Shown in pieces: positions 33,626-49,244 of a stretch of 64,000 bases of DNA. Numbering within the stretch: position 1 is the stretch's first letter; the number at the start of each line of letters is the position of its first letter. The translations under genes and the position numbers were made by a program. A model generated the notes under the pieces. It worked only from the letters and a program-made list of their open reading frames with translations. It was not told where the DNA came from and searched no databases. The stretch is from Flavobacterium jumunjinense (lineage in GTDB: Bacteria; Bacteroidota; Bacteroidia; Flavobacteriales; Flavobacteriaceae). The stretch lies in the NCBI RefSeq assembly GCF_021650975.2, contig NZ_CP091285.1:372001-436000 (forward strand). The letters run 5' to 3'.

Positions 33626-33693
33626 AGTGGAGCTCAGTAATCACTATAAAAACGAGGCAAAATCTGAAAAGCCTTATGAATAGGAACAAATAA
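33626..33693 (+). ncRNA. Structured leader, copy 1
   Basis: This is one of four related leaders (also 37599, 39237, 49170). Hairpin 1: AGTGG, loop AGCTCAGTAA, TCACT. Hairpin 2: GAGGC, loop AAAATCTGAAAA, GCCTT. It ends in a micro-ORF (33676-33693) encoding MNRNK. Compared with copy 2, the third pair of stem 1 changes from A-U to G-C and the fourth from G-C to G-U. The ATG of the downstream gene at 33710 is 16 nt after the micro-ORF stop. Confidence 0.6.
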
Positions 33694-33709
33694 ATAAATT
33701 TAAGAAATT

Positions 33710-34165
33710 ATGGAAACAACTAAAGTATTTCAATTATCAGCATTAAGTCAAAACGATGCTGGTGCAGCAGACGGCAACACAATTCTTTGTGAAATTACAA
33801 AAATCACTAATGGAAGTTTAAGAACTGGTTCATTTCCTGTTAATAAAGAAGTCCCTTTGCCAACACCTCCTGGTCAAAATAGTTCAGGACCAACTCCAAC
33901 TTGGTTCTTACAACCAGACGGTGCTATTTCAGAGACTTCGTTTGAGTTACAAATCTCATGTCCGACAGATAAAAATTATCCAACTACTTCCATTACCGTA
34001 AAAGCTTCAGATGTAGAAAAATGGGCGGCTATTTCATACAACGACAGAGATAATCAAATTTATCAAAATGGAGAATATGGCATTTTTGGTTTTGCACAAG
34101 AAGGTCCAAATGGTTTAATCTATACTATCACGGCAGGCGTTTTGAATCCTCAATTACAAGGATAG
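33710..34165 (+). CDS. Orphan cytosolic protein behind leader copy 1
   Basis: A 151-residue protein without signal peptide. It is polar and beta-rich with Pro-rich segments (EVPLPTPPGQNSSGPTPTW). Segments such as TSFELQISCPTDKNYP, KWAAISYNDRDNQIYQNGEY and YTITAGVLNPQLQG do not match a family I know. It is one of four genes preceded by the conserved structured leader, which links it to the AidA/PixA-like genes at 37676 and 49251. A terminator follows. Confidence 0.6.
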   Translation: METTKVFQLSALSQNDAGAADGNTILCEITKITNGSLRTGSFPVNKEVPLPTPPGQNSSGPTPTWFLQPDGAISETSFELQISCPTDKNYPTTSITVKASDVEKWAAISYNDRDNQIYQNGEYGIFGFAQEGPNGLIYTITAGVLNPQLQG

Positions 34166-34206
34166 TCGCTTATTGTCATTAAAAAAAAGGTAATCAAAAA
34201 CCAATC

Positions 34207-34239
34207 AAAAAGTTGCAAGTTTTCTTGTAACTTTTTTGT
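34207..34239 (+). terminator. Terminator
   Basis: AAAAAGTTGCAAG pairs with CTTGTAACTTTTT (one G-U) around TTTT, followed by T-rich sequence. Confidence 0.8.
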
Positions 34240-34333
34240 TTTCTGCCGTAAAATAATTTGAATGGAAACAAAAAACATGAAAATAAACAGTAAATTTACT
34301 TAGAACAAATAATTCAAATTAAAAACAGCAAAC

Positions 34334-34867
34334 ATGATCCCAACAATCCCAACAAAAAAAGACATTATTAATCCTCCAGGAACCCAATTAAACACTGAAA
34401 TAATTGTAACTCCAACTGGCTATTTGGATTTAGGCGCTACATTTGAACAACCTTTACCAACTCTACCTCAAGCCATTAGAAACGAAAACAATTCAAGCAT
34501 TACTGTTTCTGTTATTGTCTTAGTTAATACGACACTAGAACTACTAACATTTAAAATAAACCAACTTTTTACAATAAGTAATAATGGAGAAAGACAACTT
34601 CAATTTTTTATTTACTGTGATGAAGAACAACTTATTTCAATTGGTGAAAATTTATCAACTAATAACACTTACAAATCTTTTAAAGTAAATTTTACGACTA
34701 ATAACACTACAGGGTTCCCTATTGGTCCTGAAAAAGTAGTTTATCCTGAAAGGTATATATCTAGCAAAATTGAAATTAAAGATATTAATTTGGTAGAGAC
34801 TTTCCTTTGGGATATTGACCCTAAAACTTCAAGAGGAACTGTGACTTCAGTTGGATCTGCTGTATAA
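34334..34867 (+). CDS. Orphan module protein B (paralog of 28821)
   Basis: A 177-residue protein without signal peptide. Its C-terminus ETFLWDIDPKTSRGTVTSV matches VSFLWDEDPVGSRGTVTTV of the protein at 28821, and both have a Pro-rich start followed by a beta-rich body. It occupies the same place, directly upstream of a TPR histidine kinase gene (36 nt before) and a LytTR gene. No family is recognised. The conserved acidic/SRGTVT tail may be the part that interacts with a shared partner. Confidence 0.65.
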   Translation: MIPTIPTKKDIINPPGTQLNTEIIVTPTGYLDLGATFEQPLPTLPQAIRNENNSSITVSVIVLVNTTLELLTFKINQLFTISNNGERQLQFFIYCDEEQLISIGENLSTNNTYKSFKVNFTTNNTTGFPIGPEKVVYPERYISSKIEIKDINLVETFLWDIDPKTSRGTVTSVGSAV

Positions 34868-34903
34868 GATCTAAATATTTTTAACACCTAAATTATTCAT
34901 TAA

Positions 34904-36640
34904 ATGAAGTACATAAAAAGATTTTATTTTATGATCTTTTTATTTTTCTCGTTGCTAGTTTTTTCACAAGAAATTTCTAACAATAAATTTATTCGTACAC
35001 TAATTTTAAAAGAAATTCAGTTAAAGAAAGAAATTGATTTTAAAAAAGCATGTTCTTTTTTTATTCAAAACAACTTAGATTCAACTTTAGTTTATACAGC
35101 AAAACAGTTAAGTAATAAAAACAACACACTTGAAATCAAAGACTTTTGTCATTATTTTAGAGCACGTTGTTTTATAGAAAAAAAGATTTATGATGTAGCT
35201 AAACTAGAGTTAAATAAAATATCTAACCAAGTAGAATTTCATTATCATATAGTTATACTTTTAGGAGAAATAGCATTAGAACAACAAGATTATAAGATAG
35301 CCATTGACTATTTTGAAACAGTAGAAAGAGAATTTATTGAGAAACATGACTTCAACAGGTACTATTTTTATCAAAATTTAGGTCTTTGCTATTTTCATAC
35401 AGAAAAATTCAATAAGGCAGAAGAGTATTTATTTAGAGCTTCTAATTTTTTATCAGAAGAAGCAGATACAATAAAAACAATAAGGTTAAATATTAATATT
35501 GCCAACCTCTATTATGAGCAATACAAAGACAATCAAGCCATTCCTTATTTTGAAAAAGCGTATGCCTTGTCAAAAAAAATAAAGAATTTTGAGATAAAAC
35601 AAAATGCAGCTTTAAACATGGCTGTTGTGGAAGAAAATAGAAAAGATTTGGTAAAAGCTATGATGTATCGAAAAGAGTATGACATTTGGAAAGATTCTTT
35701 AAATAATCAAAACAAAATTTGGGCAGTAGCCGAAATTGAAAAAAAATATGCAGTAAATCAGAAACAAAAAGAAATACAACTATTAGCCTCTGAAAACAAA
35801 ACAAAAGTTTCTCAACGAAATGGTTTTATTGTTGCTTCTGTTCTATTCCTATTGCTTTTTGGAACAGCTTTTTATTTTTACAATCAAAAGAGCAAAACAA
35901 ATAAAATTATTGAGGCTCAAAAAGATAACTTAGATGATTTAAACGCTACGAAAGACAAACTATTCTCCATTGTTAGTCACGATCTGCGTTCCTCTGTAAA
36001 CGCGTTGCAAGTTACTAATGATGAATTATTAAAAGACATTGCCAATCGTAATTTTGAAACATTAGATAAAACGGCTCATAAAAATGCAGCCATTGCTAAT
36101 AGTACTTTTAATTTATTGGAAAATCTTCTACATTGGGCAACCTTACAAACACAACAACTCTATTTCCATATAGAATCTGTCGATTTATTTTCTGTAATGC
36201 AACAAATAGAATACAATTACAAACCTTTATTTGAAAATAAAAATCTTGTTTTTGCTAATAAAATTCCTAAAGCTACTTTCGTATTAGCCGATTTAGATTC
36301 TTTAAAGATAATTATTCGAAACTTGCTAGATAATGCCATAAAATTTTCAAACGAAAACGATACTATTTCAGTCTATACTTTTGATAAAGAAGCTGTTTTT
36401 CATTATCTTGTCATTGAAGATACAGGAATAGGAATGGATGAAGAAACAAGAATAAATTTGCTCAAAGAAGGGAATTTACTCAACAAAAAGAAAAACCAAA
36501 AAGGTATTGGAACAGGACTTGGCCTACAGCTTTGCAAATCGATGATTCAAAAAAACAAAGGTCATTTAGCTATTGAAAGTTATGAAAACAAAGGCACTAA
36601 GATAATTATTGCACTTCCTAAACTCACATCTAATGGATAA
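34904..36640 (+). CDS. TPR-sensor histidine kinase 2
   Basis: A 578-residue paralog of kinase 1. It has a signal-type N-terminus (FYFMIFLFFSLLVFSQ), a TPR region (YEQYKDNQAIPYFEKAYALS), a transmembrane helix (GFIVASVLFLLLFGTAFYFY), HisKA with His359 in SIVSHDLRSSVN, and HATPase motifs NLLDNAIKFSNEND, IEDTGIGM and GTGLGLQL. The HATPase and HisKA parts are most similar to kinase 1, while the sensor half has diverged, as expected for kinases that split their input. It overlaps the regulator gene by 8 nt. Confidence 0.9.
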   Translation: MKYIKRFYFMIFLFFSLLVFSQEISNNKFIRTLILKEIQLKKEIDFKKACSFFIQNNLDSTLVYTAKQLSNKNNTLEIKDFCHYFRARCFIEKKIYDVAKLELNKISNQVEFHYHIVILLGEIALEQQDYKIAIDYFETVEREFIEKHDFNRYYFYQNLGLCYFHTEKFNKAEEYLFRASNFLSEEADTIKTIRLNINIANLYYEQYKDNQAIPYFEKAYALSKKIKNFEIKQNAALNMAVVEENRKDLVKAMMYRKEYDIWKDSLNNQNKIWAVAEIEKKYAVNQKQKEIQLLASENKTKVSQRNGFIVASVLFLLLFGTAFYFYNQKSKTNKIIEAQKDNLDDLNATKDKLFSIVSHDLRSSVNALQVTNDELLKDIANRNFETLDKTAHKNAAIANSTFNLLENLLHWATLQTQQLYFHIESVDLFSVMQQIEYNYKPLFENKNLVFANKIPKATFVLADLDSLKIIIRNLLDNAIKFSNENDTISVYTFDKEAVFHYLVIEDTGIGMDEETRINLLKEGNLLNKKKNQKGIGTGLGLQLCKSMIQKNKGHLAIESYENKGTKIIIALPKLTSNG

Positions 36641-37379
36641 AGTAAACATACTCATCATTGAAGATAACCTAGATGAAGCAAAAGCACTTCAAGAGCTTTT
36701 ACAAAGAAACAATTATAATGTGGTCGGAATTGCAAGCACCCATCAAGAAGCACTCACTTTATTTTACGAATTGCCAATTGACCTTGTTATAATTGATGTT
36801 TTTTTAGACGGTAATCCCGATGGAATTAGCTTTGCAGAAACCATTTCAATTATTCCCAATGCTTTAAAACCTTTTGTTTTCTTAACAAGTTCCAAAGACC
36901 GACAAATTTTTGAAAGAGCCAAACTAACCAAACCCTTTAGTTTCTTACTGAAACCTTTCAACGAATTAGAGGTATTATATGCCATAGAAATGGCTGTCGA
37001 AAAATTCTATGATCAACCCAACGTTTTTGTAAGCGAACACCAAGACACTGTAATAAGCGAATGTTATCTTTTTATAAAAAAGAAAAATGCACTCAACAAA
37101 GTAAAAACCGATAACATAATTTATATTGAAGTTGACGATCGTTATTGCTCTATTATTACTGAAAAAGAAAAATTTGTCATTCAAATTTCTCTCGGAAAAA
37201 TTAGCGAACTATTATGTAGTAAAACTTTTGTGCAAACACACCGAAAATATATTGTGAATACCAACGCAATCGAAAAAATTATTCTTGAAGATAATTTATT
37301 GATTCTAAAAGACAATCACCAAGTCACATTTAGTGGGAAATACAAAGAAATTATAAAAAGTTTTACTATTTTAAAATAA
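36633..37379 (+). CDS. LytTR-family response regulator 2
   Basis: A 248-residue paralog of regulator 1. The receiver has IIEDNLDE, Asp55 in LVIIDVFLDG and Lys in LLKPFNELE. The LytTR domain has YIEVDDRYCSIITEKEKF and KTFVQTHRKYIVNTNAIEKI. The frame is open from a TTG at 36609, but the ATG at 36633 matches the start of regulator 1. It overlaps kinase 2 by 8 nt. A decayed copy of its 3' end lies at 38353. Confidence 0.92.
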   Translation: MDKVNILIIEDNLDEAKALQELLQRNNYNVVGIASTHQEALTLFYELPIDLVIIDVFLDGNPDGISFAETISIIPNALKPFVFLTSSKDRQIFERAKLTKPFSFLLKPFNELEVLYAIEMAVEKFYDQPNVFVSEHQDTVISECYLFIKKKNALNKVKTDNIIYIEVDDRYCSIITEKEKFVIQISLGKISELLCSKTFVQTHRKYIVNTNAIEKIILEDNLLILKDNHQVTFSGKYKEIIKSFTILK

Positions 37380-37406
37380 GCCATAACCCAACATTTTCAA
37401 ACACTT

Positions 37407-37434
37407 AAATCTTCTCAAACGGGAAGATTTTTTT
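37407..37434 (+). terminator. Terminator after LytTR regulator 2
   Basis: AAATCTTC / GAAGATTT stem followed by T-run. A near-identical element recurs at 38482 after the LytTR remnant. Confidence 0.8.
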
Positions 37435-37481
37435 GTTTTATAACGGTTAGCAAATTTCATTCACACATCTATTCTCATTCT

Positions 37482-37511
37482 TCTACATCAGAAAATATAT
37501 CATTCACATCA
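37482..37511 (+). promoter_or_regulatory. LytTR-type paired direct repeat upstream of 37676
   Basis: TCTACATCA (37482-37490) and TTCACATCA (37503-37511) match at 7 of 9 positions and start exactly 21 bp apart, the spacing of LytTR dimer sites. The palindrome CTAGCGCTAG begins 53 nt after the second unit. Confidence 0.55.
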
Positions 37512-37583
37512 TCTTTTTCATTTGGCTCTTATTCAAAACCTAATTTTATCTCAGAAAACAAAACCTAGCGCTAGAAAAATTGT
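37507..37583 (+). repeat. Promoter-region repeat, copy 1, with CTAGCGCTAG
   Basis: About 77 nt here and 38651-38726 are identical apart from two substitutions and one missing base. Both contain CTAGCGCTAG (37565-37574 and 38709-38718). A more diverged copy precedes the cupin gene (palindrome at 40918). The palindrome lies about 29 nt before the first stem of the leader here, roughly where a -33 element would be. Confidence 0.7.
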
Positions 37584-37598
37584 TTTTTTAAGATTAAA

Positions 37599-37666
37599 AG
37601 TAGAGTTCAGCAACTACTATAAAAACGAGGCGTAATCTGAAAAGCCTTATGAGTAAGAACAAATAA
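37599..37666 (+). ncRNA. Structured leader, copy 2
   Basis: Hairpin 1: AGTAG, loop AGTTCAGCAA, CTACT. Hairpin 2: GAGGC, loop GTAATCTGAAAA, GCCTT. The micro-ORF at 37649-37666 encodes MSKNK and stops 9 nt before the ATG of the AidA/PixA-like gene. The stem begins 24 nt after the CTAGCGCTAG palindrome, consistent with transcription starting at about 37595-37600. Confidence 0.6.
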
Positions 37667-37675
37667 ACAAAAATT

Positions 37676-38251
37676 ATGGCAACAAATAGTGTAGAAACAA
37701 CCTGGACAATTAACACATTAATAAACACAAATTATTTAGATAGCTTATCTGGAACAGGAACTTGGGAAAATCCAATTGGAGGAAATCAATATTTTAGTGA
37801 CAATATAATTTTTGTCGCTACAAATGATAAGAACAATAATGTTTATTATGCAAATGACACGAACTTCAAATTAACAGTTAGTAAAAATGACAAAATAAAT
37901 TGGGTTGTAAATTCTATGAACCCAATTAACAATAAGAACTTAGGAGTGGTTATGTATGGTTTTGACAAAGGCGCAAATTGGACTGGTAGCTTAACAAGTC
38001 CATCATCCGAAAGTATAGAATCCGTTTCGGTTAATTTAACTAACGGATTCATGAGCCAAAGTAAACCTACTGGTACCTTCATAGAAGCTAAGGCAAGTGA
38101 AATTGCTGTACCTCATACTTCTGTTAAAATTGAACCTGTAAAAGTTACAATTAATTATCACATTATGATTCTTCTTTTAGATCTATCTTCTCCAAGTAAA
38201 CCATCAATTAAAAAGTATATCAAAATTGACCCAAAATTTATTATTTCATAA
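37676..38251 (+). CDS. AidA/PixA-like inclusion-body protein (divergent)
   Basis: A 191-residue protein without signal peptide. The pattern TWTINTLINTNYLDSLSG, NDKINWVVNSMNP, a central region and a late INYHIMILLLDLS segment resembles the AidA/PixA family, whose members include cytoplasmic inclusion-body proteins and quorum-sensing-controlled proteins of unknown function. Compared with the clear members at 49251 and 49886 the match is weaker. It is preceded by a LytTR-type repeat, the CTAGCGCTAG element and leader copy 2. A terminator follows. Confidence 0.55.
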   Translation: MATNSVETTWTINTLINTNYLDSLSGTGTWENPIGGNQYFSDNIIFVATNDKNNNVYYANDTNFKLTVSKNDKINWVVNSMNPINNKNLGVVMYGFDKGANWTGSLTSPSSESIESVSVNLTNGFMSQSKPTGTFIEAKASEIAVPHTSVKIEPVKVTINYHIMILLLDLSSPSKPSIKKYIKIDPKFIIS

Positions 38252-38297
38252 AACTGTCAATTTTTATATTCGAAAAATGATTTAAAATTTTATTGTG

Positions 38298-38325
38298 AAA
38301 GGCTGTCAAAAAAGACAGCCTTTTT
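38298..38325 (+). terminator. Terminator
   Basis: AAAGGCTGTC-aaaaaa-GACAGCCTTT followed by TT. Confidence 0.85.
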
Positions 38326-38352
38326 ATCTTTAAATGAAAACAAATACACATT

Positions 38353-38484
38353 CAACAAAAACACATTGTAAATACAAATATTATAGAATAATTTACTTCC
38401 AAAAGTAAATTATTATTGAAGGTTATTCATAAAGTTCCATTTCGGAAAAATAAACAATTACAACATATTTTTAAAATACTTAAA
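38353..38484 (+). pseudogene. Decayed 3' end of a third LytTR regulator gene
   Basis: One frame reads QQKHIVNTNIIE, a stop, then FTSKSKLLLKVIHKVPFRKN and further to HIFKILK. Regulator 2 reads HRKYIVNTNAIEKI, then EDNLLILKDNHQVTF and onward to SFTILK in the same order and spacing. The downstream terminator (38482) is also a copy of that after regulator 2 (37407). This is the remnant of a third LytTR gene, interrupted by an in-frame stop at 38389. An apparent open frame beginning at TTG 38416 is only part of this remnant. Confidence 0.7.
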
Positions 38485-38508
38485 TCTTCTCAAACGGGAA
38501 GGTTTTTT
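38482..38508 (+). terminator. Copy of the LytTR-gene terminator
   Basis: AAATCTTC / GAAGGTTT with the same loop (TCAAACGG) as the terminator at 37407, differing by one base in the stem. Confidence 0.65.
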
Positions 38509-38604
38509 CATTTAGGACTCATTTTGTTTCTTGTTTTTAAGAGCACAACAACAGCTCTTTCAATACTGCTTAAATTCAATTTCATTGAAATACAACCAAT
38601 TTTA

Positions 38605-38655
38605 TTTACAACAAATAACTTTTCATTCACAACAGAAAACCTTCCGTTTACATCA
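38605..38655 (+). promoter_or_regulatory. Triple 21-bp-phased direct repeat upstream of 38756
   Basis: TTTACAACA (38605), TTCACAACA (38626) and TTTACATCA (38647) begin at exact 21-bp intervals. This is the phasing of LytTR binding sites, with three units instead of two. CTAGCGCTAG begins 53 nt after the last unit (38709-38718). It is the clearest operator in the island. Confidence 0.65.
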
Positions 38656-38726
38656 TCTTTTACATTTGGCTCTTATTCAAAACCTAATTTTATCTCAGAA
38701 AACAAAATCTAGCGCTAGAAAATTGT
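38651..38726 (+). repeat. Promoter-region repeat, copy 2, with CTAGCGCTAG
   Basis: Second copy of the repeat at 37507-37583, with two substitutions and one missing base. Here no structured leader follows; the gene starts 37 nt after the palindrome. Confidence 0.7.
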
Positions 38727-38755
38727 TCTTAAACATTCATTAAAAAATAAACATT

Positions 38756-39223
38756 ATGAAAAAAGTAATTGTAAAATTGGAATTCGAAGGTAAAGATTTT
38801 GGATATATGAGAATCGATAAAAAAGGAACATTTTATGGAGGAGGAAGTGAATCTGAAGCAGTAGAATTTGAGTTAGAAAAATACAGCAAATTGAAAGAGG
38901 CTAATTATTTTAAAGTTTCGGGAACTAAAGGGTATCTTGATTTCAAAGCAACATCCTCAATCTTGTTTTCTGACACACCTTGGCTTTCAGTAGATAGTTC
39001 ATCTATATGTGCATGGAAGATTATCGACAATGAATTACATGCTATTTTAGGAGGAAAAGACACAACAAAAGCTGTAAGCAGAAGCGCTCATGATTCATCT
39101 ACTAGTGCTCTATATGCAAATTCCCCTATAGACAACAACCATTGTACAGTAACACTTGTTGATGCTACAAAAAAATCTTCTAACAATGAAAAAGAAGAAC
39201 TAAAACACGCATTAACCGTTTAA
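38756..39223 (+). CDS. Orphan cytosolic protein
   Basis: A 155-residue protein without signal peptide, beta-rich in the first 120 residues (VKLEFEGKDFGYMRIDKKG, FYGGGSESEAVEFELEKY, CAWKIIDNELHAILGG) with a charged tail. The pattern loosely suggests a beta-trefoil or similar small beta domain, but I cannot assign it. It is preceded by the triple direct repeat and CTAGCGCTAG. The next gene's structured leader begins 13 nt after its stop, so the two may share a transcript. Confidence 0.6.
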   Translation: MKKVIVKLEFEGKDFGYMRIDKKGTFYGGGSESEAVEFELEKYSKLKEANYFKVSGTKGYLDFKATSSILFSDTPWLSVDSSSICAWKIIDNELHAILGGKDTTKAVSRSAHDSSTSALYANSPIDNNHCTVTLVDATKKSSNNEKEELKHALTV

Positions 39224-39236
39224 TTTTTTTAGTAGA

Positions 39237-39304
39237 AGTAGAGTTCAGCAACTACTATAAAAACGAGGTGAAATCTGAAAAGCCTTATGAGTAGGAACAA
39301 ATAA
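39237..39304 (+). ncRNA. Structured leader, copy 3 (intercistronic)
   Basis: Hairpin 1: AGTAG, loop AGTTCAGCAA, CTACT. Hairpin 2: GAGGT, loop GAAATCTGAAAA, GCCTT, where the closing pair becomes U-G. The micro-ORF at 39287-39304 encodes MSRNK. Unlike copies 1 and 2 it lies only 13 nt after an upstream stop codon, with no CTAGCGCTAG element between, so here it would function inside an operon. Confidence 0.6.
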
Positions 39305-39320
39305 ATAAATTTTAGAAATA

Positions 39321-39740
39321 ATGACTAAAAAAGAAATATCCATAAAAACTTTTAACAATACAGCCTTCTGCTGGGAAGCTTTCCCAAATGCAGAAAATCA
39401 AGAAATAAAATTAAACATTTATGATAGCCTAAACCAAGATCAAAGATGGACAATTAAAAGTTCAAAAATAACTATCAATACTAGAAATCAAGGGGCTAAA
39501 GTAGCAGAATGTTATCCGAAATCTAATCGCTTAGAAACCTCTAATAACCATCCTGATAGCATTGACCAAATCTTTGAATTCAAAAACATTCCAGAAGAAG
39601 GACCTAATGTATACTTTATAAGTTGTAACACTAAAAACAAAGGAACCCTTTTTGTGTATGGAAACTCCGAAAACCACAAAGGAATTGGACTACGAGAATT
39701 TAACCCAACGGATACAGAGTTATACTGGATTATAGAATAA
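39321..39740 (+). CDS. Orphan cytosolic protein behind leader copy 3
   Basis: A 139-residue protein without signal peptide. Segments such as NTAFCWEAFPNAENQEIKLN, QDQRWTIKSSK, KVAECYPKSNR and GIGLREFNPTDTELYWII give a Trp-containing repeating beta pattern that could be a small beta-trefoil lectin-like domain. This is a weak resemblance only. It is linked to other island genes through the leader. Confidence 0.55.
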   Translation: MTKKEISIKTFNNTAFCWEAFPNAENQEIKLNIYDSLNQDQRWTIKSSKITINTRNQGAKVAECYPKSNRLETSNNHPDSIDQIFEFKNIPEEGPNVYFISCNTKNKGTLFVYGNSENHKGIGLREFNPTDTELYWIIE

Positions 39741-39802
39741 TTACAAGGAATTTAAAGTAACAATATTTTTTATTTCCGAGAGTTTTTCAAATATTTAGAA
39801 TA

Positions 39803-39836
39803 AGAGGCTGTTCTTGCTTTTTAGGACAGCCTTTCT
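39803..39836 (+). terminator. Terminator
   Basis: AGGCTGT pairs with ACAGCCT around a 14-nt loop, followed by TTCTT. It resembles the terminator at 38298. Confidence 0.6.
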
Positions 39837-39871
39837 TATAAAATAAAATGTACTTAATACAAGTTTTCCCA

Positions 39872-39901
39872 TTCACAACATAAAAACGTTCATTCACAAC
39901 A
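39872..39901 (+). promoter_or_regulatory. LytTR-type paired direct repeat upstream of 40047
   Basis: TTCACAACA occurs at 39872-39880 and again at 39893-39901, two identical 9-mers 21 bp apart. The stretch 39741-40046 otherwise holds a terminator and no gene. The CTAGCGCTAG element expected at 39955 is replaced by a poor match. Confidence 0.6.
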
Positions 39902-40046
39902 TTTTTTTCATCTTCCTTTCTGGCAATTTATATTTTTATGAAAGAAGCCAAGTATTAGGTATAATTTAAAACCAAAAATGAGTAGATTTTTTGCTATAAA
40001 CCTATTTCGCCTGTAAAGAAAAAAACACCTCAAATATTTTAATGTT

Positions 40047-40310
40047 ATGCCAGAAAAAAATCAAGATAAAGACAAAACGTTATCACCCAATAGTGGTAAT
40101 ACTAAATATACAATTAATATTTCTATCGAAGATCCAGAGAAACATATTGAAATCCTAAAGATAAACAATACTATTCCTGGTCAAAAAAACATTGCATGGC
40201 TAGCTCAAAATCCAAACAACAATAATATTGTATATAGTGAAAACTATCCAGTATATATGCCTAATAAAAATCCAATTAGTCCAAATGTTACAATTAAAAA
40301 AGAAGATTAA
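40047..40310 (+). CDS. Small orphan protein
   Basis: An 87-residue polar protein with no signal peptide, rich in Asn, Pro and Lys (SPNSGNTKYTINISIED, AWLAQNPNNNNIVYSENYP). No family is recognised. Its main interest is the perfect LytTR-type repeat pair upstream. It may be a small binding or assembly partner in the island, but there is no evidence beyond position. Confidence 0.5.
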   Translation: MPEKNQDKDKTLSPNSGNTKYTINISIEDPEKHIEILKINNTIPGQKNIAWLAQNPNNNNIVYSENYPVYMPNKNPISPNVTIKKED

Positions 40311-40483
40311 TCAATAACAATCACTCTATTAAGACAACAAAAAAATTTGATTTTCAATAAGTTATTCCACAGTACTATTGAAAATTTTCCTATAGACGCA
40401 AACAAATACACAATTCAAATTTACATTCTGTTCACAACAATTGACCCCAAAAAAAACAGCAACATTAAATAAAAATAGAAATT

Positions 40484-40807
40484 ATGACAGCATCAAAACT
40501 ACAAGAAATAATAGCTACAGTACGACCTAATCCAAATAATTGGAGTTTTTATGAAAATCAAATTCGAGATGGAGCCAAAAAGATATTTAATGAAACGGTA
40601 TCAATAAAAGAACCGGATTTATACCCATTTGCATATGCCACTCAAATAATTGACAGAGGATTGGGTTTTAGTTTCATGTGCAACAAATTCACAAATGGAA
40701 GGTTTCGTTTGTACGAATGTTTATTAGTCTTTGTATATCAAACTTTTGAAGGAGAAAATATATTGGTAAAAATTCAAAAAGTGGAATACAATTATGACAG
40801 TGAGTAA
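40484..40807 (+). CDS. Small orphan protein
   Basis: A 107-residue protein without signal peptide: KLQEIIATVRPNPNNWSFYE, QIIDRGLGFSFMCNKF and LYECLLVFVYQTFEGENI. No family is recognised. A single TTCACAACA (40431-40439) lies 45 nt upstream of the ATG but without a partner at 21 bp. Confidence 0.5.
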   Translation: MTASKLQEIIATVRPNPNNWSFYENQIRDGAKKIFNETVSIKEPDLYPFAYATQIIDRGLGFSFMCNKFTNGRFRLYECLLVFVYQTFEGENILVKIQKVEYNYDSE

Positions 40808-40834
40808 TTTTTTTAAAAATGAGCAGGTATTTCA

Positions 40835-40864
40835 CTCACAACATAAAAACGCTCATTCACAACA
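40835..40864 (+). promoter_or_regulatory. LytTR-type paired direct repeat upstream of the cupin gene
   Basis: CTCACAACA (40835-40843) and TTCACAACA (40856-40864) begin 21 bp apart. CTAGCGCTAG (40918-40927) follows 53 nt after the second unit, the same distance as at 37565 and 38709, although the intervening sequence is much more diverged. Confidence 0.65.
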
Positions 40865-40960
40865 TTTTTTTTATTTGCTGTTGTGTTGTAAGCTAATTTT
40901 ATAACAGAAAATAAAAACTAGCGCTAGATTTTTTTCAAAACTTGAAAAAAGTAGATTTTG

Positions 40961-41003: not shown

Positions 41004-41079
41004 GAATTTTTGAAAATAAATATTTTATACTCACAAATTCAACAAACTAATTAAATAATAACCTAAAATTAAATCAATT

Positions 41080-41968: not shown

Positions 41969-41990
41969 TAACATTTTAAAATATGTAAAC

Positions 41991-43001
41991 ATGAATGAAC
42001 AAAAAGTAACTCCGCCAATATTTCCAAATTCTTTAATTATTGAACCAACCCAATCCAACCCTGAACCAAATATCAAAGGATTAGGCCCTTTGCAATATTT
42101 AATTGGAACTTGGACAAATCAAAATTTAGGGTCGTCTGAAAGAGGTGGAAAATTAATGCCTTACTCTTATAACTTATTGGCTCTTCCATCAATTGAAGCA
42201 AAGGAAAAATACATCCTAAAAAACTTCACCTATTATGAGGAAATTACCTTCTCTCCAATAAATGGAAATGTGCAGAATAGAGGAGGTAATTATAGTCAAT
42301 ATTCAAATGTAATTTTCTATGAACAACGCGTCTATTTTGCAGAAGGACCATATAAAGACAAACTAGTACATGCAGAAAATGGTTCGTGGCTTTTCTTAAA
42401 AATAGATGAGCAACCCTTAAATGCATATGGTGCTACTCCTGTAATTCCACCTCCAAACCCGCTCCCAGTGCAAAACAAATTAGCTACTATTGCGAAACAA
42501 ATTTCTGTACCACATGGTAATTCAATTTTAGCTATTGGAAATATTAAAAACTATAATAATCTTCAAGAAAACTCATATATAAACGAAGGACCATTAGAAA
42601 TTGAAGATTACCAAGGTAGTCTTCCTCAAGACGCAGATTCAATAACTCCTTACAGAATAAAAACAAGTACTCAAGGAGGAAACCCTCATCCGCTATTTAA
42701 CACAAACCCAAACAGACCATTGCAGCAATCTACTGTTGATTATCCCTGTACAAAATATATTGAATGGAGTGTTGACACCGAAAACAAAGCAGCACTAGGT
42801 TCTGTAACAAACATTCCTTTTGAACAAAAAAAAGCTGATGTTTCAAACTACAAAGCACAATACTGGTTGCAATCTTTTAATTCTGAAAATGCATATACAC
42901 AATTAGCCTATTCACAAACCATTATATTAGATATTCCAATAAATGGTAAAATAGTCAAATTTCCACATATCACGTGTAATGTACTAACCAAGAAAGAGTA
43001 A
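41991..43001 (+). CDS. Heme-binding-like (lipocalin/nitrobindin-type) beta-barrel protein
   Basis: A 336-residue protein. GPLQYLIGTWTNQNLG near the start, SYNLLALP, YEEITFSPINGNVQNRGG and KQISVPHGNSILAIG follow the order seen in large lipocalin-like proteins annotated as heme-binding. A late KYIEWSVDTENKAALGSVT vaguely recalls the tails of the proteins at 28821 and 34334. There is no signal peptide. The ATG at 41991 is chosen because the in-frame TTG at 41940 lies inside the preceding gene. Ligand and function are unproven. Confidence 0.5.
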   Translation: MNEQKVTPPIFPNSLIIEPTQSNPEPNIKGLGPLQYLIGTWTNQNLGSSERGGKLMPYSYNLLALPSIEAKEKYILKNFTYYEEITFSPINGNVQNRGGNYSQYSNVIFYEQRVYFAEGPYKDKLVHAENGSWLFLKIDEQPLNAYGATPVIPPPNPLPVQNKLATIAKQISVPHGNSILAIGNIKNYNNLQENSYINEGPLEIEDYQGSLPQDADSITPYRIKTSTQGGNPHPLFNTNPNRPLQQSTVDYPCTKYIEWSVDTENKAALGSVTNIPFEQKKADVSNYKAQYWLQSFNSENAYTQLAYSQTIILDIPINGKIVKFPHITCNVLTKKE

Positions 43002-43077
43002 AGATCAATATCTATTGAACTTAAACTACTTAGATAGTAAAGCAAATCATTTAATAAAACTAACAAATACATCAAAT

Positions 43078-44742
43078 ATGGCTTCAAATACTTTAAGAAA
43101 CCCTCGTGAACTTCACAATCTTAAAAATTTTATAGATCAAATAACAACAACGCTCCCTTCTTCCATAAAAATTTCAACTTCTATAGGAGACTCAGAAACT
43201 TTTTATAATCATTATGAAAACAGTCTGATATTTAACACCCGAATTCAGACTAATCCATTCGTTATTGTCTATTGCGAAAATGAATTAGATGTTATAACAA
43301 CCTACAATGCCGCAACCAAAAATGAACTTCCGATTCGAGTTAGAGCTGGTGGTCATGATCATGAAGGAGAATGCAGCGGAACAAATACTATTGTAATAGA
43401 CGTTTCAAAAATTAACCATATCAAGGTAGACCCAAAAACTAAAATTGCATCTATTGGTCCTGGGAATAAATTTATAAGATTAACTACTGAGTTAGCCAAA
43501 GAAGATGTAATGATACCTCATGGCACTTGTGCAACGGTTGGTATTGCTGGTTTCACCATGGGTGGCGGTTGGGGTCCTTGGACAAGAGAAAACGGAATGT
43601 GTTGTGAGTCACTTGTAGGTGTAGATATCCTCTTAGGTAATGGAGAAATTGTAAAACTCGATGTTGACAAAAATGGAAAAGTCCCAGAATTACTTTGGGC
43701 GCTAAGAGGAGGTGGCGGTATGAGTTACGGCATTGTTACTGAACTTCGCATTCAAACATTCCCTTTGCCTCCTGCTTTATATCGTTTTGAATTAGAATGG
43801 AACTGTTATGAAGATATTAGTATGTTATGTTTAAAAGAAACAATACCTACTATAAAAGTACTAAAAAATTGGGAAAGACTTATTCAAAGTGACGACACTC
43901 CTTCCTTAGTAGGAACTAATTTTAAAATAAACGGATTACCTTGGGAAAAGAATAAACCAATCGATGTAAATACCATTGCTCACAATTGCATTCTCTACGG
44001 GTATTGGAAAGGTGATAAAGCAAGCCTTGACGCATTTATCAAAAAAGAATTTACAGGTGATTTAGCCCCTTGTTGGAAAAACATAGAAGCCCCAACTGGA
44101 GCAGATTATCCAAAAGACACTTATGGTTTAAATTTAATGAATTCATGGGATAGAGAATCATTGCCTAGAATTCAAACTAAAATGGGATTCAAAAATGTAA
44201 ATGGCATTCCTTTTAAACCAGATGAAGACAAACCTGCACCTCATAAAATAACGTCTCGCTTAGTCAATAAAGAAGGACTTGGCTATGAAGGTAAAAATGG
44301 GTACGAACAATTATTAAAAAGTCTAACATCAGACCTCATTTTAAAAGGTAACAGAACACTTGGGCTATTTACATATGTTACACTAGGTGCAATTGCGGGT
44401 GATTTTTATAAAAAACATCCGAATGGTAATGGTAGTGCTTTTCCCTACAAAGACAAACTATATACAATACAGTACCAATGCTGGTGGAACGCAGAAGGAA
44501 AAGAAATTGAAAAAGAGCAAGATAGTTTTGTATATGACAGAACGAATAGAGCTTTAGACTGGATAGAAAAAAGTAGAGAAATAGAAATCCAGAATACCTC
44601 TGGAGCCTTTATTAGTTTCAAGGATAACTCTATCCCTACAGAAACCTATTTTTCTTATAACTATGATAAGTTGAAAGAAATTAAAATCAATTATTCAAAA
44701 GATGAGTACAATCATTTTAGAACTCGTAAAACAATCATTTAA
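43078..44742 (+). CDS. Berberine-bridge-type FAD-dependent oxidoreductase
   Basis: A 554-residue FAD-linked oxidase. His93 in RAGGHDHEGECSG and Cys151 in PHGTCATVGIAGFTMGGG are in the positions that bind FAD covalently through two bonds in this family. ELLWALRGGGGMSYGIVTE and a BBE-type C-terminus (NYDKLKEIKINYSKDEYNHF) complete the match. Such enzymes oxidise sugars, alcohols or natural-product intermediates with O2. No signal peptide is seen from the ATG at 43078; an in-frame TTG at 43015 is less likely. Predicted substrate unknown. Confidence 0.88.
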   Translation: MASNTLRNPRELHNLKNFIDQITTTLPSSIKISTSIGDSETFYNHYENSLIFNTRIQTNPFVIVYCENELDVITTYNAATKNELPIRVRAGGHDHEGECSGTNTIVIDVSKINHIKVDPKTKIASIGPGNKFIRLTTELAKEDVMIPHGTCATVGIAGFTMGGGWGPWTRENGMCCESLVGVDILLGNGEIVKLDVDKNGKVPELLWALRGGGGMSYGIVTELRIQTFPLPPALYRFELEWNCYEDISMLCLKETIPTIKVLKNWERLIQSDDTPSLVGTNFKINGLPWEKNKPIDVNTIAHNCILYGYWKGDKASLDAFIKKEFTGDLAPCWKNIEAPTGADYPKDTYGLNLMNSWDRESLPRIQTKMGFKNVNGIPFKPDEDKPAPHKITSRLVNKEGLGYEGKNGYEQLLKSLTSDLILKGNRTLGLFTYVTLGAIAGDFYKKHPNGNGSAFPYKDKLYTIQYQCWWNAEGKEIEKEQDSFVYDRTNRALDWIEKSREIEIQNTSGAFISFKDNSIPTETYFSYNYDKLKEIKINYSKDEYNHFRTRKTII

Positions 44743-44752
44743 AAAATAAATC

Positions 44753-45250
44753 ATGAAAAAAGACATCAAAATCAATTACATAAATAAATCTATTAACAAC
44801 GATTTACCAAACATTTTTCAATTTACTAAAAATGATATACCATGTTTTGATCATTTAAAGGAAGGTGTTGCTTGGAGACCAGCAATAAATGGTAATGATC
44901 CCTTTGGAATGATAGAAACAAAGACGATTGAAGTATTAAAAACGGATAATCAAGAGGCAACTTTAACTTCAACATACAATCCAAATGTACAAGAAGAAGA
45001 ATTAGTATTTAAATATAAACTTAAGGGACAAAATGCTCAAGAATGGGAATTAACATATGGTGAAGTAGCTATTATTTTTGCACGAAGAGAAGTTTCTGTC
45101 AACAAAAAATCAAAATATAAAAATCTAGGAATCTTCTCAATTGGAAAATATACAGATTGGTTATATAGCCATAACTTATGGGAGCAACCTGAAGAATTAG
45201 AAAATAGAATTTATAGCTTATTAGAATTTAATTTAACTGGAAAAAAATAA
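44753..45250 (+). CDS. Orphan cytosolic protein related to 15026-15646
   Basis: A 165-residue protein without signal peptide. The start DIKINYINKSINNDLPNIFQ and GVAWRPAING correspond to LNFINKSND and VAWKVIKNC of the 206-residue protein at 15026. The C-terminal half (LTYGEVAIIFARREVSVNKK) differs. Function unknown. It lies 10 nt after the FAD oxidase gene and 5 nt before the Ntn hydrolase gene, so the three are co-transcribed. Confidence 0.6.
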   Translation: MKKDIKINYINKSINNDLPNIFQFTKNDIPCFDHLKEGVAWRPAINGNDPFGMIETKTIEVLKTDNQEATLTSTYNPNVQEEELVFKYKLKGQNAQEWELTYGEVAIIFARREVSVNKKSKYKNLGIFSIGKYTDWLYSHNLWEQPEELENRIYSLLEFNLTGKK

Positions 45251-45255
45251 TTGAT

Positions 45256-46308
45256 ATGTGTACAAGAATATTTAATAATTTCAATAAAGAAAATTTAACC
45301 ACAGCTCGCAATATGGATTGGGCTACCGAATTACCGACAAGTCTATTTGTTTTTAGAAATGAAAAAAATACTCCAATGGTAAAAACAGGGACAAGTCCAC
45401 AAAACGAAAATTCGCTAATATGGACAGCAAAATACAATAGTGTAGTAACCATGGTGGGCGATGAACGAAAATACGGAGCGTCCGATGGATTAAACTCTGC
45501 TGGACTTATGGCTAATTTGCTATATGATAGTAATGCTAGTTATGAGCGTAAAGATGGAAGCTCTTGTAAAAATCTAGATGTATTTTGTTGGCTACAATTT
45601 GTATTAGATACTTGTTGTTCTGTACAAGAAGTTGTTGAAAAATTCAGCAAAGAGGCAACACCTCAAATACAAATCATAGGTGGTATTGTACCTGGAAGTA
45701 CAAAGCCTGCTTCTTTACATTTATCTATTTCTGACAAATTTGGTGACTCAGCAATTATTGAGGTAAATAAAGGAAAATACGTCATTTATAACAATCCAGA
45801 ATTTAGGGTAATGACCAATGAGCCTTCTTATGCAAAACAGATTGAGCTTAATCAATATTGGAGATGGCAATGGAGCAATAAAAACAATTTCCCAAGTAAC
45901 ACTTTACCAGGTGGAACATTCCCATCTGACCGTTTTGCAAGAGCTTCTTATTATCTAAATCATTTATACACTTCAGTCAGCACAGATGATTCGTTAGCAC
46001 AATCAAAATCGGTTGTAATGAATGCTTCTGTTCCAGTAAACTTTAAATCTGGTGATTCAAATCATCCAAACATAGCACAAACGCTTTGGACAACTATTTC
46101 TAGTCATAATGATTTAAAATACTTTTTTTGTAATTCTAGAACACTTGGAAACATATGGGTAGATTTAAATATAATAGATTTATTCCCTGCTCCTGTTTCA
46201 CGACTTATTTTGGTTGAAGAAATAGATTCTAATTTCATAAATAAATCGCTTTACGGCTTCAAAAATAATGATTTCGAAGCTACTAAAGATCCATTTAAAG
46301 CTAATTAA
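45256..46308 (+). CDS. Choloylglycine-hydrolase-family Ntn amidase
   Basis: A 350-residue linear amide C-N hydrolase. It begins MCTRIFNNFN, so Cys2 becomes the N-terminal nucleophile after Met removal. TARNMDWA provides the conserved Arg/Asp region, and a late TLGNIWVDLN segment fits the family. Relatives hydrolyse penicillin V, bile-salt conjugates or, in some Gram-negatives, acyl-homoserine lactones. Many homologs are exported, but this one has no signal peptide. It ends the operon at a strong terminator. Confidence 0.85.
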   Translation: MCTRIFNNFNKENLTTARNMDWATELPTSLFVFRNEKNTPMVKTGTSPQNENSLIWTAKYNSVVTMVGDERKYGASDGLNSAGLMANLLYDSNASYERKDGSSCKNLDVFCWLQFVLDTCCSVQEVVEKFSKEATPQIQIIGGIVPGSTKPASLHLSISDKFGDSAIIEVNKGKYVIYNNPEFRVMTNEPSYAKQIELNQYWRWQWSNKNNFPSNTLPGGTFPSDRFARASYYLNHLYTSVSTDDSLAQSKSVVMNASVPVNFKSGDSNHPNIAQTLWTTISSHNDLKYFFCNSRTLGNIWVDLNIIDLFPAPVSRLILVEEIDSNFINKSLYGFKNNDFEATKDPFKAN

Positions 46309-46348
46309 AAAAGTAAGGCTGACAAAATAATTGTCAGCCTTACTTTTT
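46308..46348. terminator. Bidirectional terminator
   Basis: AAAGTAAGGCTGACA pairs with TGTCAGCCTTACTTT around AAATAAT, with A- and T-runs outside. It directly abuts the stop codon of the convergent msrB gene. Confidence 0.9.
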
Positions 46349-46793
46349 ATATTTCTATCTTCTTTAATGAAACCGCATTCATACAATAACGCAAACCACT
46401 TGGCTCTGGTCCATCTGGAAAAACATGTCCTAAATGTCCTTCACAAGTGTTACACACTGCTTCTACCCTAATCATTCCAAAAGATACATCTTTAATATAT
46501 CCTATAGAATTTTCTTTTATGGGTTGTGTAAAAGAAGGCCAACCTGTTCCGCTTTCAAATTTTTCATTAGCATCAAAAAGTAATGTATCACAACAAACAC
46601 AGCCATAAATCCCTGGTTCAAATAAAGAACAAAGCTCCGAACTATTTGGCCTTTCTGTTCCTTTTAATCTTGTGATTCTATATTGTTCTTCGGATAACTG
46701 AGCCTTCCAATCGGCTTCTGTTTTTACCACTTTTCTATCTGCTTCTGGGTTTCCTCTAGTTGCAAAACCTATAATAGTATTCCAATTTAGCAT
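46347..46793 (-). CDS. msrB: Peptide-methionine (R)-S-oxide reductase
   Basis: A 148-residue MsrB. Zinc ligands are in YGCVCCDTLLF and AVCNTCEGHLGHVF, and the catalytic Cys lies in GLRYCMNAVSL. SGTGWPSF is the substrate-binding motif. It reduces the R form of methionine sulfoxide in proteins. No signal peptide is visible, so it is cytosolic. It lies downstream of selO and msrA on the same strand, which is a meaningful redox-repair group. Confidence 0.95.
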   Translation of the reverse strand: MLNWNTIIGFATRGNPEADRKVVKTEADWKAQLSEEQYRITRLKGTERPNSSELCSLFEPGIYGCVCCDTLLFDANEKFESGTGWPSFTQPIKENSIGYIKDVSFGMIRVEAVCNTCEGHLGHVFPDGPEPSGLRYCMNAVSLKKIEI

Positions 46794-46831
46794 AAGTTAT
46801 ATTTTTTATTATTTAAAATTTAAACGACTAT

Positions 46832-48406
46832 TTAAGAACTACATGATAATGCAGAACATCCTACTTTGTGCCTTGCCCAATCTGGTCGTTTTGCATACCA
46901 TTTTTGATATTCTGGTTGTTCATCATAAGGCTTCAAAAGCATTTCATACATTTCATTTAGTAATTTATAATCTCCTTTATCAGCTTCGTCAATAGCCAAT
47001 TGAGCCATATAATTTCTCAAAACATATTTTGGATTAACACGATTCATTGCATTTTTTCTATCTTCATCTGTCACTCCTTGGTGTTTTATAATTGAAAGAT
47101 ATTGTGTAAACCAATACAACCATGTATCCTTTGTAATATCTTTCACTTCTTCAACATTATAGAATGCATCTTTCAATTTTTCTAAAGCAGTTTCAATTGT
47201 ATCATCTTGTTTAACTTGACTCAGATCTCTAAAAAAAATAGTCATGTCTGTTTCTGTTAATTGAAGATTCTCTGTTAACAAATAAATACTTTCTTTCGTT
47301 TTTTCATTTTCAGAGAAGAAACCTAATTTGTCATGCATCATTTTTAAATATTCAACTTCATATTGAATAGGAAAGTCGTTCAAAATTTTCTCTAAAGGTT
47401 CTGCTTCTTCAATTAAAGGAAATAAAGCATTCGCCAATTGCAACAAATTCCATTGTGCAATTTTAGATTGATTACCAAAACGATACCTCTTGTGCTCATT
47501 ATCTGTAGTGTTTGGTGTCCAATTCGGGTTATAATCTTCCAGCCAACCATATGGCCCATAATCGATTGTCAATCCATGAATAGACATATTATCGGTATTC
47601 ATTACACCATGAACAAAACCAACTCTTTGCCAATGCACAATCATTTTAAGCGTTTTATTGGCTACCGTTTCAAAGAAAGCTAAATATTTTTCTTTTCCTT
47701 CTAATGAAATTTCAGGATAATAATATTTAATAGTATAATCTACCAGTGATTTCAAATTTTTATCATCTTCTCTTGCTGCGAAAATTTCAAAATTACCAAA
47801 ACGGATAAAAGAAGGTGCAACTCGTGTTACAATTGCTCCTTTTTCGTAGGCCGCATTCCCATTATATAGTACATCACGTAAAACTTCATCTCCGCTTAAA
47901 GCTAGTGCTAAAGAACGAGTAGTTGGCACTCCCAAATGGAACATGGCTTCACTACAAAGGTGTTCACGAATAGAAGAACGTAAAACTGCAAAACCATCTC
48001 CCTTTCGAGAATAAGGTGTTTTACCCGCTCCTTTTAATTGAAGCATTAAACTAACATTATTATTTTCTATTTCAAATAAATTAATAGCTCTTCCGTCTCC
48101 TAATTGCCCTGCCCAATGTCCAAATTGATGCCCAGCATAACACATTGCATACGGCTTCGTTTCTTTAAAAACCGATTTCCCGGAAAATACATTTAAAAAT
48201 TCATCAGAATTTAAATCCTTTTCTGTTAGCCCTACACTTTGCGCAACGTCTTTTGACACATGTATGATGCTTGGATTTGATGGTTTTTTGGGTTCTACAT
48301 AAGAAAAACAAGCACCAACAACTTGCCTAGGTTCATCGTTTTCAATTACATCTGCTGACAGTTCTTTTGTAAACTTATTTTTAATATTCAATATCATTTT
48401 TTCCAC
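46832..48406 (-). CDS. selO: SelO-family protein adenylyltransferase (AMPylase)
   Basis: A 524-residue pseudokinase-fold enzyme. Family segments include HQFGHWAGQLGDGRAINLFE, KGAGKTPYSRKGDG, RSSIREHLCSEAMFHLGVPT and VHGVMNTDNMS. SelO attaches AMP from ATP to proteins during oxidative stress. The C-terminus GCSALSCSS has Cys at the antepenultimate position where the human protein has selenocysteine, so the redox-active tail is kept. It lies between msrB and msrA with 38 and 30 nt gaps. Confidence 0.93.
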   Translation of the reverse strand: MEKMILNIKNKFTKELSADVIENDEPRQVVGACFSYVEPKKPSNPSIIHVSKDVAQSVGLTEKDLNSDEFLNVFSGKSVFKETKPYAMCYAGHQFGHWAGQLGDGRAINLFEIENNNVSLMLQLKGAGKTPYSRKGDGFAVLRSSIREHLCSEAMFHLGVPTTRSLALALSGDEVLRDVLYNGNAAYEKGAIVTRVAPSFIRFGNFEIFAAREDDKNLKSLVDYTIKYYYPEISLEGKEKYLAFFETVANKTLKMIVHWQRVGFVHGVMNTDNMSIHGLTIDYGPYGWLEDYNPNWTPNTTDNEHKRYRFGNQSKIAQWNLLQLANALFPLIEEAEPLEKILNDFPIQYEVEYLKMMHDKLGFFSENEKTKESIYLLTENLQLTETDMTIFFRDLSQVKQDDTIETALEKLKDAFYNVEEVKDITKDTWLYWFTQYLSIIKHQGVTDEDRKNAMNRVNPKYVLRNYMAQLAIDEADKGDYKLLNEMYEMLLKPYDEQPEYQKWYAKRPDWARHKVGCSALSCSS

Positions 48407-48436
48407 TTTTTAAAACATTCACATTAAAAACAAATA

Positions 48437-48967
48437 CTACTTCAATTTATCTGCGTAGTAATTTCTTAGCTTCGCTATTTTTGGATCAATTACCGCTCTA
48501 CAGTATCCAGCTTCTTGATTATCATTATAATAATTTTGATGATTCTCTTCTGCTACATAAAATACATCAAAAGATTTAAGTTGTGTAACAATCGGATTAG
48601 CATATACTTCCTGAACTTTTTGAAACACCTTCTCCGCGATTGCTTTTTGTTCCTCACTATGATATAAGACAATAGAACGGTATTGCGTTCCATGATCTGC
48701 TCCCTGAGCATTTAAAGTTGTAGGATCATGACTTGTCATAAAAATGGTTAGTAAGTCTTCATAAGAAATAACATCCGAATCGAATGTAACCTGTACCACT
48801 TCTGCATGACCAGTTCTTCCTGAACAAACTTCTCTATATGCCGGATTTTTAATATGCCCATCAGTATATCCCGATACAATTTGTTCTATCCCTTTTAACC
48901 TTTGTATAACTGCTTCTATACACCAAAAACATCCACCTCCAAAAGTTGCTAATTGAGAATTTTTCAT
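48437..48967 (-). CDS. msrA: Peptide-methionine (S)-S-oxide reductase
   Basis: A 176-residue MsrA. The catalytic Cys lies in FGGGCFWCIEA, and GYTDGHIKNPAYREVCSGRT, HDPTTLNAQGADHGTQYRS and ENHQNYY are the usual signatures. It reduces the S form of methionine sulfoxide, complementing MsrB. It is probably the first gene of the msrA-selO-msrB transcript. Confidence 0.95.
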   Translation of the reverse strand: MKNSQLATFGGGCFWCIEAVIQRLKGIEQIVSGYTDGHIKNPAYREVCSGRTGHAEVVQVTFDSDVISYEDLLTIFMTSHDPTTLNAQGADHGTQYRSIVLYHSEEQKAIAEKVFQKVQEVYANPIVTQLKSFDVFYVAEENHQNYYNDNQEAGYCRAVIDPKIAKLRNYYADKLK

Positions 48968-49100
48968 TCTTACTGTTTTTTTAAAATTATTATAGCGTTA
49001 CAAAGATACAATACATATAAATTATACAATTGTTAATACTTCCTCATTGTTTGTTAATTATTCCTTCCCAAACACAAAAACAGTTAATCTTATGAAAAAC

Positions 49101-49114
49101 AGGTATTTATACCT
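49101..49114. promoter_or_regulatory. AGGTATTTATACCT palindrome
   Basis: AGGTAT-TT-ATACCT lies 136 nt upstream of the AidA/PixA gene start. Its core GTATTTATAC is shared with the inverted repeat at 21206-21250. The gap 48968-49250 also contains leader copy 4. Confidence 0.45.
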
Positions 49115-49169
49115 ATAAAAAGAAAATCATTTCATCTTAATTTTATACTGTAATATTACAAACAAATAA

Positions 49170-49244
49170 AGTGAAGTTCAGCAATCACATTAAAAAACGA
49201 GGCGGAACCTGAAAGGCCTTATGAGTAGGGAAACAAACAAATAA
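49170..49244 (+). ncRNA. Structured leader, copy 4
   Basis: Hairpin 1: GTGA, loop AGTTCAGCAA, TCAC. Hairpin 2: GAGGC, loop GGAACCTGAAAG, GCCTT. Compared with copy 2, the two inner pairs of stem 1 change from A-U to G-C and from G-C to A-U, both compensatory. The micro-ORF (49221-49244) encodes MSRETNK and has a 6-nt insertion that keeps the frame and stop. The AidA/PixA gene starts 6 nt later. Confidence 0.62.

Follow-up and report, generated by a model that had tools for sequence, protein, structure and literature searches.

Four short structured leaders that precede genes in a 64-kb stretch of the Flavobacterium jumunjinense genome (contig NZ_CP091285.1, positions 372,001 to 436,000 of the forward strand; hereafter the window, meaning the whole 64,000 nucleotides, with position 1 at its first letter) are members of an already catalogued bacterial RNA family, the DUF805 RNA (Rfam RF03081). 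Comparison with about 200 relatives suggests that this element is probably composed of two tandem H-type pseudoknots, and we favor, with moderate confidence, the reading that the leader of about 68 nucleotides (nt) acts as a twin pseudoknot on translation initiation via a trans-acting factor or ligand. In an Rfam scan of the window the four copies scored 65.1-75.4 bits against a gathering score of 51.1 (E-values 4.4e-12 to 1.1e-9), with every match spanning the full model from position 1 to 68. RF03081, which is of the Cis-reg type and belongs to clan CL00115, was the sole Rfam family above its own cut-off in the window, and no known riboswitch model was matched there; weaker overlapping matches from the clan were omitted in the RF03081 alignment scan. 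Two Phe_leader matches (37349-37436 and 38451-38511) were set aside, as they reach 28 bits against a cut-off of 55 and coincide with terminator-like hairpins. The original prediction for this region had located four shared leaders at sites that the Rfam coordinates confirm to within a few bases, but its claim that they formed an unrecognized class falls because the class is already catalogued in Rfam, an outcome that the prediction itself had named as refuting. Our own model built from 73 RNAs scores the four copies at 72.1-79.5 bits (E <= 4e-14), the next window match having an E-value of 0.28; the copies match this model by construction because they were included in its training set. The 4.68-Mb genome holds six copies, four inside the window and two elsewhere, with a seventh candidate at an E-value of 0.086, and the leader of copy 1 had no blastn relative in a plasmid collection. 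A literature search returned no paper with RF03081 and, among papers naming DUF805, none that is about the DUF805 RNA by its title; the RNA also goes unnamed in the parts considered here of a Flavobacterium psychrophilum transcriptome study (PMC9723704). The present analysis contributes to RF03081 a probable twin-pseudoknot fold, a strict start-codon spacing and an occurrence in Pseudomonas and Ignavibacteria.

The RF03081 alignments of the four window copies contain both consensus stems and the conserved loops, with zero non-standard pairs. In the segment parse stem 1 reads GTGG/TCAC, GTAG/CTAC, GTAG/CTAC and GTGA/TCAC in copies 1-4, which bears out the compensatory changes first described for it. 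The accompanying picture of two hairpins with conserved loops holds as far as the stems are concerned, but probably leaves out part of the structure, since both loops seem to take part in pseudoknots, which we consider likely rather than proven. In the relatives the first of these (PK1) joins loop 1 to the linker that precedes stem 2, and the second (PK2) joins the end of loop 2 to a GUAGG segment on the 3' side of that stem. The two modules follow a common plan of a stem, a short loop, a CC-like strand, five mostly A residues, the stem again, about nine nt and a GG-like strand. Module 1 consists of stem 1, 3 nt, YC, 5 nt, the stem, 8-9 nt and GR, and module 2 of stem 2, 4-5 nt, CY, 5 nt, the stem, 9 nt and RG. 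The lengths are tightly kept in a set of 201 sequences (202 minus one dropped for length): loop 1 has 3 nt before the PK1 strand in 188 and 5 nt after it in 197, loop 2 has 4 nt (141 sequences) or 5 nt (54) before the PK2 strand and 5 nt after it in all 201, the first linker measures 9 or 8 nt (94 and 73 of 201) and the second 9 nt in 199. All four window copies have UC/GA as PK1. Their PK2 reads CU/GG except in copy 2, where it is CU/AG and has a U-A pair in place of the U-G of the other three.

The pseudoknots are supported chiefly by covariation. From the 73-RNA alignment we had left out 12 loci below the Rfam cut-off (L024-L035), four short loci (L013, L065, L070 and L078) and two near-duplicates (L064 and L081); the alignment has 11 invariant columns. 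Its twelve named pairs are standard in 96.1% of cells, as against 87.5% in shuffles and 14-54% when the structure is slid, and 11 of the 12 display two-sided changes, as do both pseudoknot pairings. None of 500 shuffles reached any of the five measures used. The main PK1 pair is C-G in 47 of these RNAs, U-A in 14, U-G in 6, A-U in one and unpaired in two, while the second is C-G in 66, U-G in three, U-A in two, G-U in one and unpaired in one. For PK2 the corresponding counts are C-G 48, U-A 11, U-G 10 and unpaired 4 at the main pair, and C-G 65, U-G 4, U-A 3 and unpaired 0 at the second. Stem 2 and some of the linker sequence are fixed in the DNA pattern with which sequences outside the discovery set were collected; these sequences therefore provide no test of stem 2 and are restricted at the 3' bases of PK1. 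Here 119 of 129 distinct sequences could be parsed, the other 10 failing the strict parse, and the first PK2 pair was C-G in 73, U-A in 21, U-G in 19, A-U in two and C-A in four, that is, paired in 115 of 119 against 98.9 expected from column make-up. Across the set of 201, standard pairs occupy 186/191 (main) and 196/201 (second) positions in PK1, and 192/201 and 196/201 in PK2. When all 2,145 column pairs of the 201 sequences were ranked, the nine top-scoring ones were all proposed pairs, namely five of stem 1, one of stem 2, the main PK1 pair and both PK2 pairs; in the independent 128 sequences the main PK2 and PK1 pairs rank 2 and 5. Furthermore, under a tree-based null of our own, which is rough and heavy-tailed, the main pairs of both PK1 (E 0.026) and PK2 (E 0.009) pass in these 128 sequences when the test is confined to the pre-named set of 12 pairs.

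A second constant feature of the element is its position. The 3' strand of PK2 lies 17-29 nt 5' of the ATG of an open reading frame (ORF) in 175 of 201 RNAs, as opposed to 67 of 985 shifted control positions, and the median distance is 22 nt in the 192 RNAs that have an ORF ATG within 80 nt. In window copies 1-4 the distance is 27, 20, 27 and 23 nt, and the RNA itself ends 11-19 nt before the ATG of a gene on the same strand. The spacers after the leader are A- and T-rich. In the set from named genomes, 25 of 135 leaders begin no more than 60 nt from where a same-strand open frame longer than 80 codons ends, two of them overlapping that frame.

The genes that follow are very diverse. The proteins encoded after the four window leaders (ORFs starting at 33710, 37676, 39321 and 49251) lack mutual similarity in BLASTP comparisons of ten window proteins at E <= 1, as had been predicted; the PixA-type ORFs at 49251 and 49886 do match each other, the latter following the gene of copy 4. 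One of the genomic copies outside the window precedes a PF05526 gene. Five of the six downstream genes of the genome, Pfam-scanned singly, have no match to DUF805, and the sixth (L002) has no NCBIfam match. For the relatives we used those genome-sample matches that were extracted as loci. Pfam searches of their downstream proteins recovered 31 families from a set of 83 and 54 from a set of 120, counts that include some overlapping models, and the commonest families were SCO4226-like (17/203) and DUF805 (14/203). The first of these sets comprises 83 of 87 proteins, eight of which lie behind below-cut-off matches, with L025, L027, L031 and L035 excluded for a distant start; the second comprises 120 of 132, the 12 excluded being mostly short or starting far from the RNA. 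The leader is hence conserved independently of the protein, as the original prediction held, and the dozens of protein families encoded behind it suggest a signal common to them. The same prediction had the leaders exerting cis control over the genes of an island; their position agrees with cis control, but "island genes" is too narrow a scope because two of the six copies lie elsewhere in the genome and relatives carry the leader before dozens of Pfam families.

Among sampled genomes RF03081 matches at E <= 0.001 occur in at least 76 of 121 of the genus, in 30 of 199 of the family and in 69 of 395 of the phylum, and matches above the cut-off in at least 59, in 18 and in 55 of these, respectively. 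Copies may be clustered in relatives too, three lying within 1.9 kb in one genome (G278:C3) among the matches listed. A DNA pattern scan of named genomes recovered at least 120 stretches, and the 80 titles listed comprise three Pseudomonas, two Ignavibacteria and otherwise Bacteroidota by title; RF03081 confirms the three Pseudomonas and two Ignavibacteria records above its cut-off. The Pseudomonas sites (L110 5989-6057, L133 6597-6665 and L137 6420-6488) each lie before a small gene, which by eye resembles genes behind the leader in L091 and L196, and this suggests that leader and gene were transferred together. All three Pseudomonas copies have kept the leader and contain GGAG in the spacer (the second ATG being assumed as the start for L133 and L137). 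In a contig from a viral collection (L226, 181-508) the RNA pattern stands directly before a gene like the one behind the Pseudomonas leaders, and this contig may be host DNA beside a prophage. Two variants, L029 (1501-1596) and L148 (903-996), have an insert of about 25-30 nt between the first linker and stem 2, perhaps an extra hairpin; L029 had no match above the cut-off in the RF03081 confirmation scan.

Based on these observations we propose that the mRNA leader folds into two tandem H-type pseudoknot modules, the second of which would end about 22 nt before the AUG, a position given by the comparison, near the upstream edge of the footprint of a starting ribosome. The folded element might then set 30S loading on the A-rich stretch before the AUG of the next gene, and a shared trans factor, presumably a protein and less likely a small ligand, could shift 30S loading for many unrelated genes at once. 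Bacteroidota start translation without Shine-Dalgarno pairing, and the probable twin-pseudoknot anatomy with its fixed distance to the AUG offers specific tests of leader control under such conditions. The level of translation initiation is suggested by the position of the element before the AUG. The short spacers, and the leaders that closely follow an upstream ORF, speak for regulation at the following start codon and not at transcription. According to a study on F. johnsoniae (PMC6847099), mRNA structure tunes initiation in that organism, and pairing is generally lower between -20 and +20. The leader element ends near the border of this region. The GGAG in the Pseudomonas spacers is what one would expect were the leader to act jointly with the ribosome site, and we favor 30S loading via a shared trans factor because of the placement, the short spacers, the F. 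johnsoniae data and these Pseudomonas spacers taken together. A tentative extension, which we would put well short of probable, is that the DUF805 RNA serves Bacteroidota generally as a translational switch through which one trans factor or signal co-regulates many genes, and that it moved with a gene into Pseudomonas.

Several points weigh against this proposal. Single copies fold no clearly better than shuffles (z-scores of -0.34, -1.25, 0.09 and 0.60 for copies 1-4), so that the structure of the leader rests on comparison and not on energy. Only copies 1 and 4 form the consensus stem 1 in their minimum-energy fold; this stem is displaced in copy 2 and missing from copy 3. In all four copies the nested minimum-energy fold lengthens stem 2 to five pairs across the 3' bases of PK1. 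With the tree-based null applied to all pairs of the 201 sequences, the sole significant pair is the stem-1 pair 6:23; the main pairs of PK1 and PK2 have E-values of 0.43 and 0.59 in this set and of 4.7 and 1.6 in the independent 128. Even within the pre-named set of 12 the second pairs fail (PK1 2.7, PK2 0.088). A third PK2 pair can be read from the window copies (U-A in three and C-G in copy 4), but is unsupported across relatives, where it is paired in 49 of 119 sequences (44 expected) and in 89 of 201. Finally, both the level of action and the trans factor are inferred.

The unrelated downstream genes would equally be expected for a signal molecule, and the compact pseudoknots near the start codon and the 11 invariant columns are the kind of features seen if the twin pseudoknot were the aptamer of a small-molecule riboswitch, opening or closing the start region in response to a widespread signal such as a second messenger. 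However, the element stops upstream of the start region instead of covering it, and no pathway theme linking the genes to one metabolite was noticed, no dedicated test for one having been made; we consider a riboswitch rather unlikely. The fixed site before the AUG, the very different genes and the A- or T-rich spacers could also point to a constitutive, signal-free leader that serves to stabilize the message or to enhance the translation of abundant proteins. The conservation of loop bases and lengths is stricter than a generic stabilizer should need, and six copies in a genome are few for such a role, making it a minority prospect in our judgment. Transcription attenuation or antitermination, which the placement of the leader ahead of genes might suggest, would have little room given the 17-29 nt between the PK2 3' strand and the AUG in 175 of 201 RNAs, and a pattern scan of the four window copies detected nothing terminator-like from the leader to the ATG; we attach very little weight to it.

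A DNA-level element, such as an operator or part of a promoter, might be invoked instead of an RNA structure, since upstream palindromes are common to some of the window loci and there is a weak excess of motifs resembling the -7 box 11-20 nt upstream of the RNA start; a count over positions -40 to -1 gave 90 such boxes, against a shuffled mean of 73 with a standard deviation of 8. A DNA-level element is highly improbable in view of the compensated pairs of the two stems and of the pseudoknots, and of a start-codon distance that is constant while no fixed-distance promoter was found; sigma-70-type sites between 33500 and 50000 are at chance level (83 against 79.5 in shuffles). Least credible of all is a leader peptide or upstream ORF that would start at an AUG of the last linker. 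Such an AUG, followed by an in-frame stop before the main AUG, occurs in each of the six genome copies, and columns 55-57 hold AUG in 93 of 201 sequences, but the same columns hold ACG in 78 and AAG in 26. An in-frame stop before the main AUG occurs in 41 of 90 sequences with the AUG, compared to 44 of 99 without it and 42 of 90 in frame +1, whereas frame +2 has stops in 87 of 90, which the conserved TAG would explain. When tested, this candidate was accordingly found to be unsupported, the short frame not being conserved and its stops being no commoner than in the controls.

The individual window copies, all on the plus strand, can be parsed as follows, with their pairs assigned by the segment parse and, for copy 1, named with reference to the pairs tested and the covariation seen in the relatives. 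Copy 1 (33622-33690; 65.1 bits) leads ORF 33710-34165, whose ATG is at 33710 and whose product of 151 amino acids has no Pfam or NCBIfam match. Its stem 1 would pair 33627-33630 with 33641-33644 around a loop carrying the PK1 5' strand (33634-33635), the PK1 3' strand being 33654-33655, while stem 2 pairs 33656-33658 with 33671-33673 and PK2 pairs 33664-33665 with 33683-33684. Copy 2 (37595-37664; 75.4 bits) has a core at 37600-37657, with stem 1 at 37600-37603/37614-37617, stem 2 at 37629-37631/37644-37646, PK1 at 37607-37608/37627-37628 and PK2 at 37637-37638/37656-37657; it leads ORF 37676-38251, which encodes 191 amino acids, also with no Pfam or NCBIfam match. In copy 3 (39233-39301; 72.8 bits; core 39238-39295) the corresponding elements are stem 1 at 39238-39241/39252-39255, stem 2 at 39267-39269/39282-39284 with one G-U pair, PK1 at 39245-39246/39265-39266 and PK2 at 39275-39276/39294-39295, and the following ORF 39321-39740 (139 amino acids) has only a sub-threshold Pfam match to a ricin-type lectin (E 0.027). 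Copy 4 (49166-49235; 67.1 bits; core 49171-49229) has stem 1 at 49171-49174/49185-49188, stem 2 at 49201-49203/49216-49218, PK1 at 49178-49179/49199-49200 and PK2 at 49209-49210/49228-49229, and leads ORF 49251-49799, a member of the PixA family (PF12306, E 8.7e-47).

The surroundings of these copies contain other potential regulatory features. Similar upstream blocks of three genes, compared by eye, hold the palindrome CTAGCGCTAG at 37563-37575, 38707-38719 and 40916-40928, and a search for this 13-base pattern with at most one mismatch gave those three sites only among the genome matches listed; upstream of copy 1 there is a related CTAGCTAG at 33602-33609. This palindrome might serve the island as an operator distinct from the RNA element. 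The third palindrome is followed by a gene for a cupin-domain protein (PF00190, 41080-41550), before which neither the Rfam scan nor the 73-RNA model detected a DUF805 RNA. Between copies 1 and 2 lie genes for a TPR-containing histidine kinase and a LytTR response regulator (34904-37379), a pair that could regulate the island. Terminator-like hairpins are present on the plus strand between island genes at 34207-34236, 37407-37430, 38297-38324 and 38482-38505. Copy 3 starts nine bases past the end of ORF 38756-39223 and may be co-transcribed with it, because a pattern scan found no terminator-like hairpin between the two.

In comparison with known systems, the window copies agree with the RF03081 model in both stems, the conserved loops and the full model length. 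The model line reported by cmscan shows 7 pairs in two hairpins; it contains no pseudoknot, a feature that a covariance model cannot display. The clan partner of RF03081 in CL00115, which we take to be the DUF805b RNA, is less close, as the window copies score best to RF03081; the insert variants L029 and L148 are conceivable members of this partner family. The preQ1-I, preQ1-II and SAM-II riboswitches are likewise small H-type pseudoknots near a start codon, but the DUF805 RNA differs from them in having two tandem modules and unrelated downstream genes. The protein-bound pseudoknot leaders of T4 gene 32 and of ribosomal protein operators resemble it in placing a pseudoknot ahead of an A-rich start region; unlike these, the DUF805 RNA precedes many unrelated genes, so that its control would be exerted in trans and not by the gene's own product.

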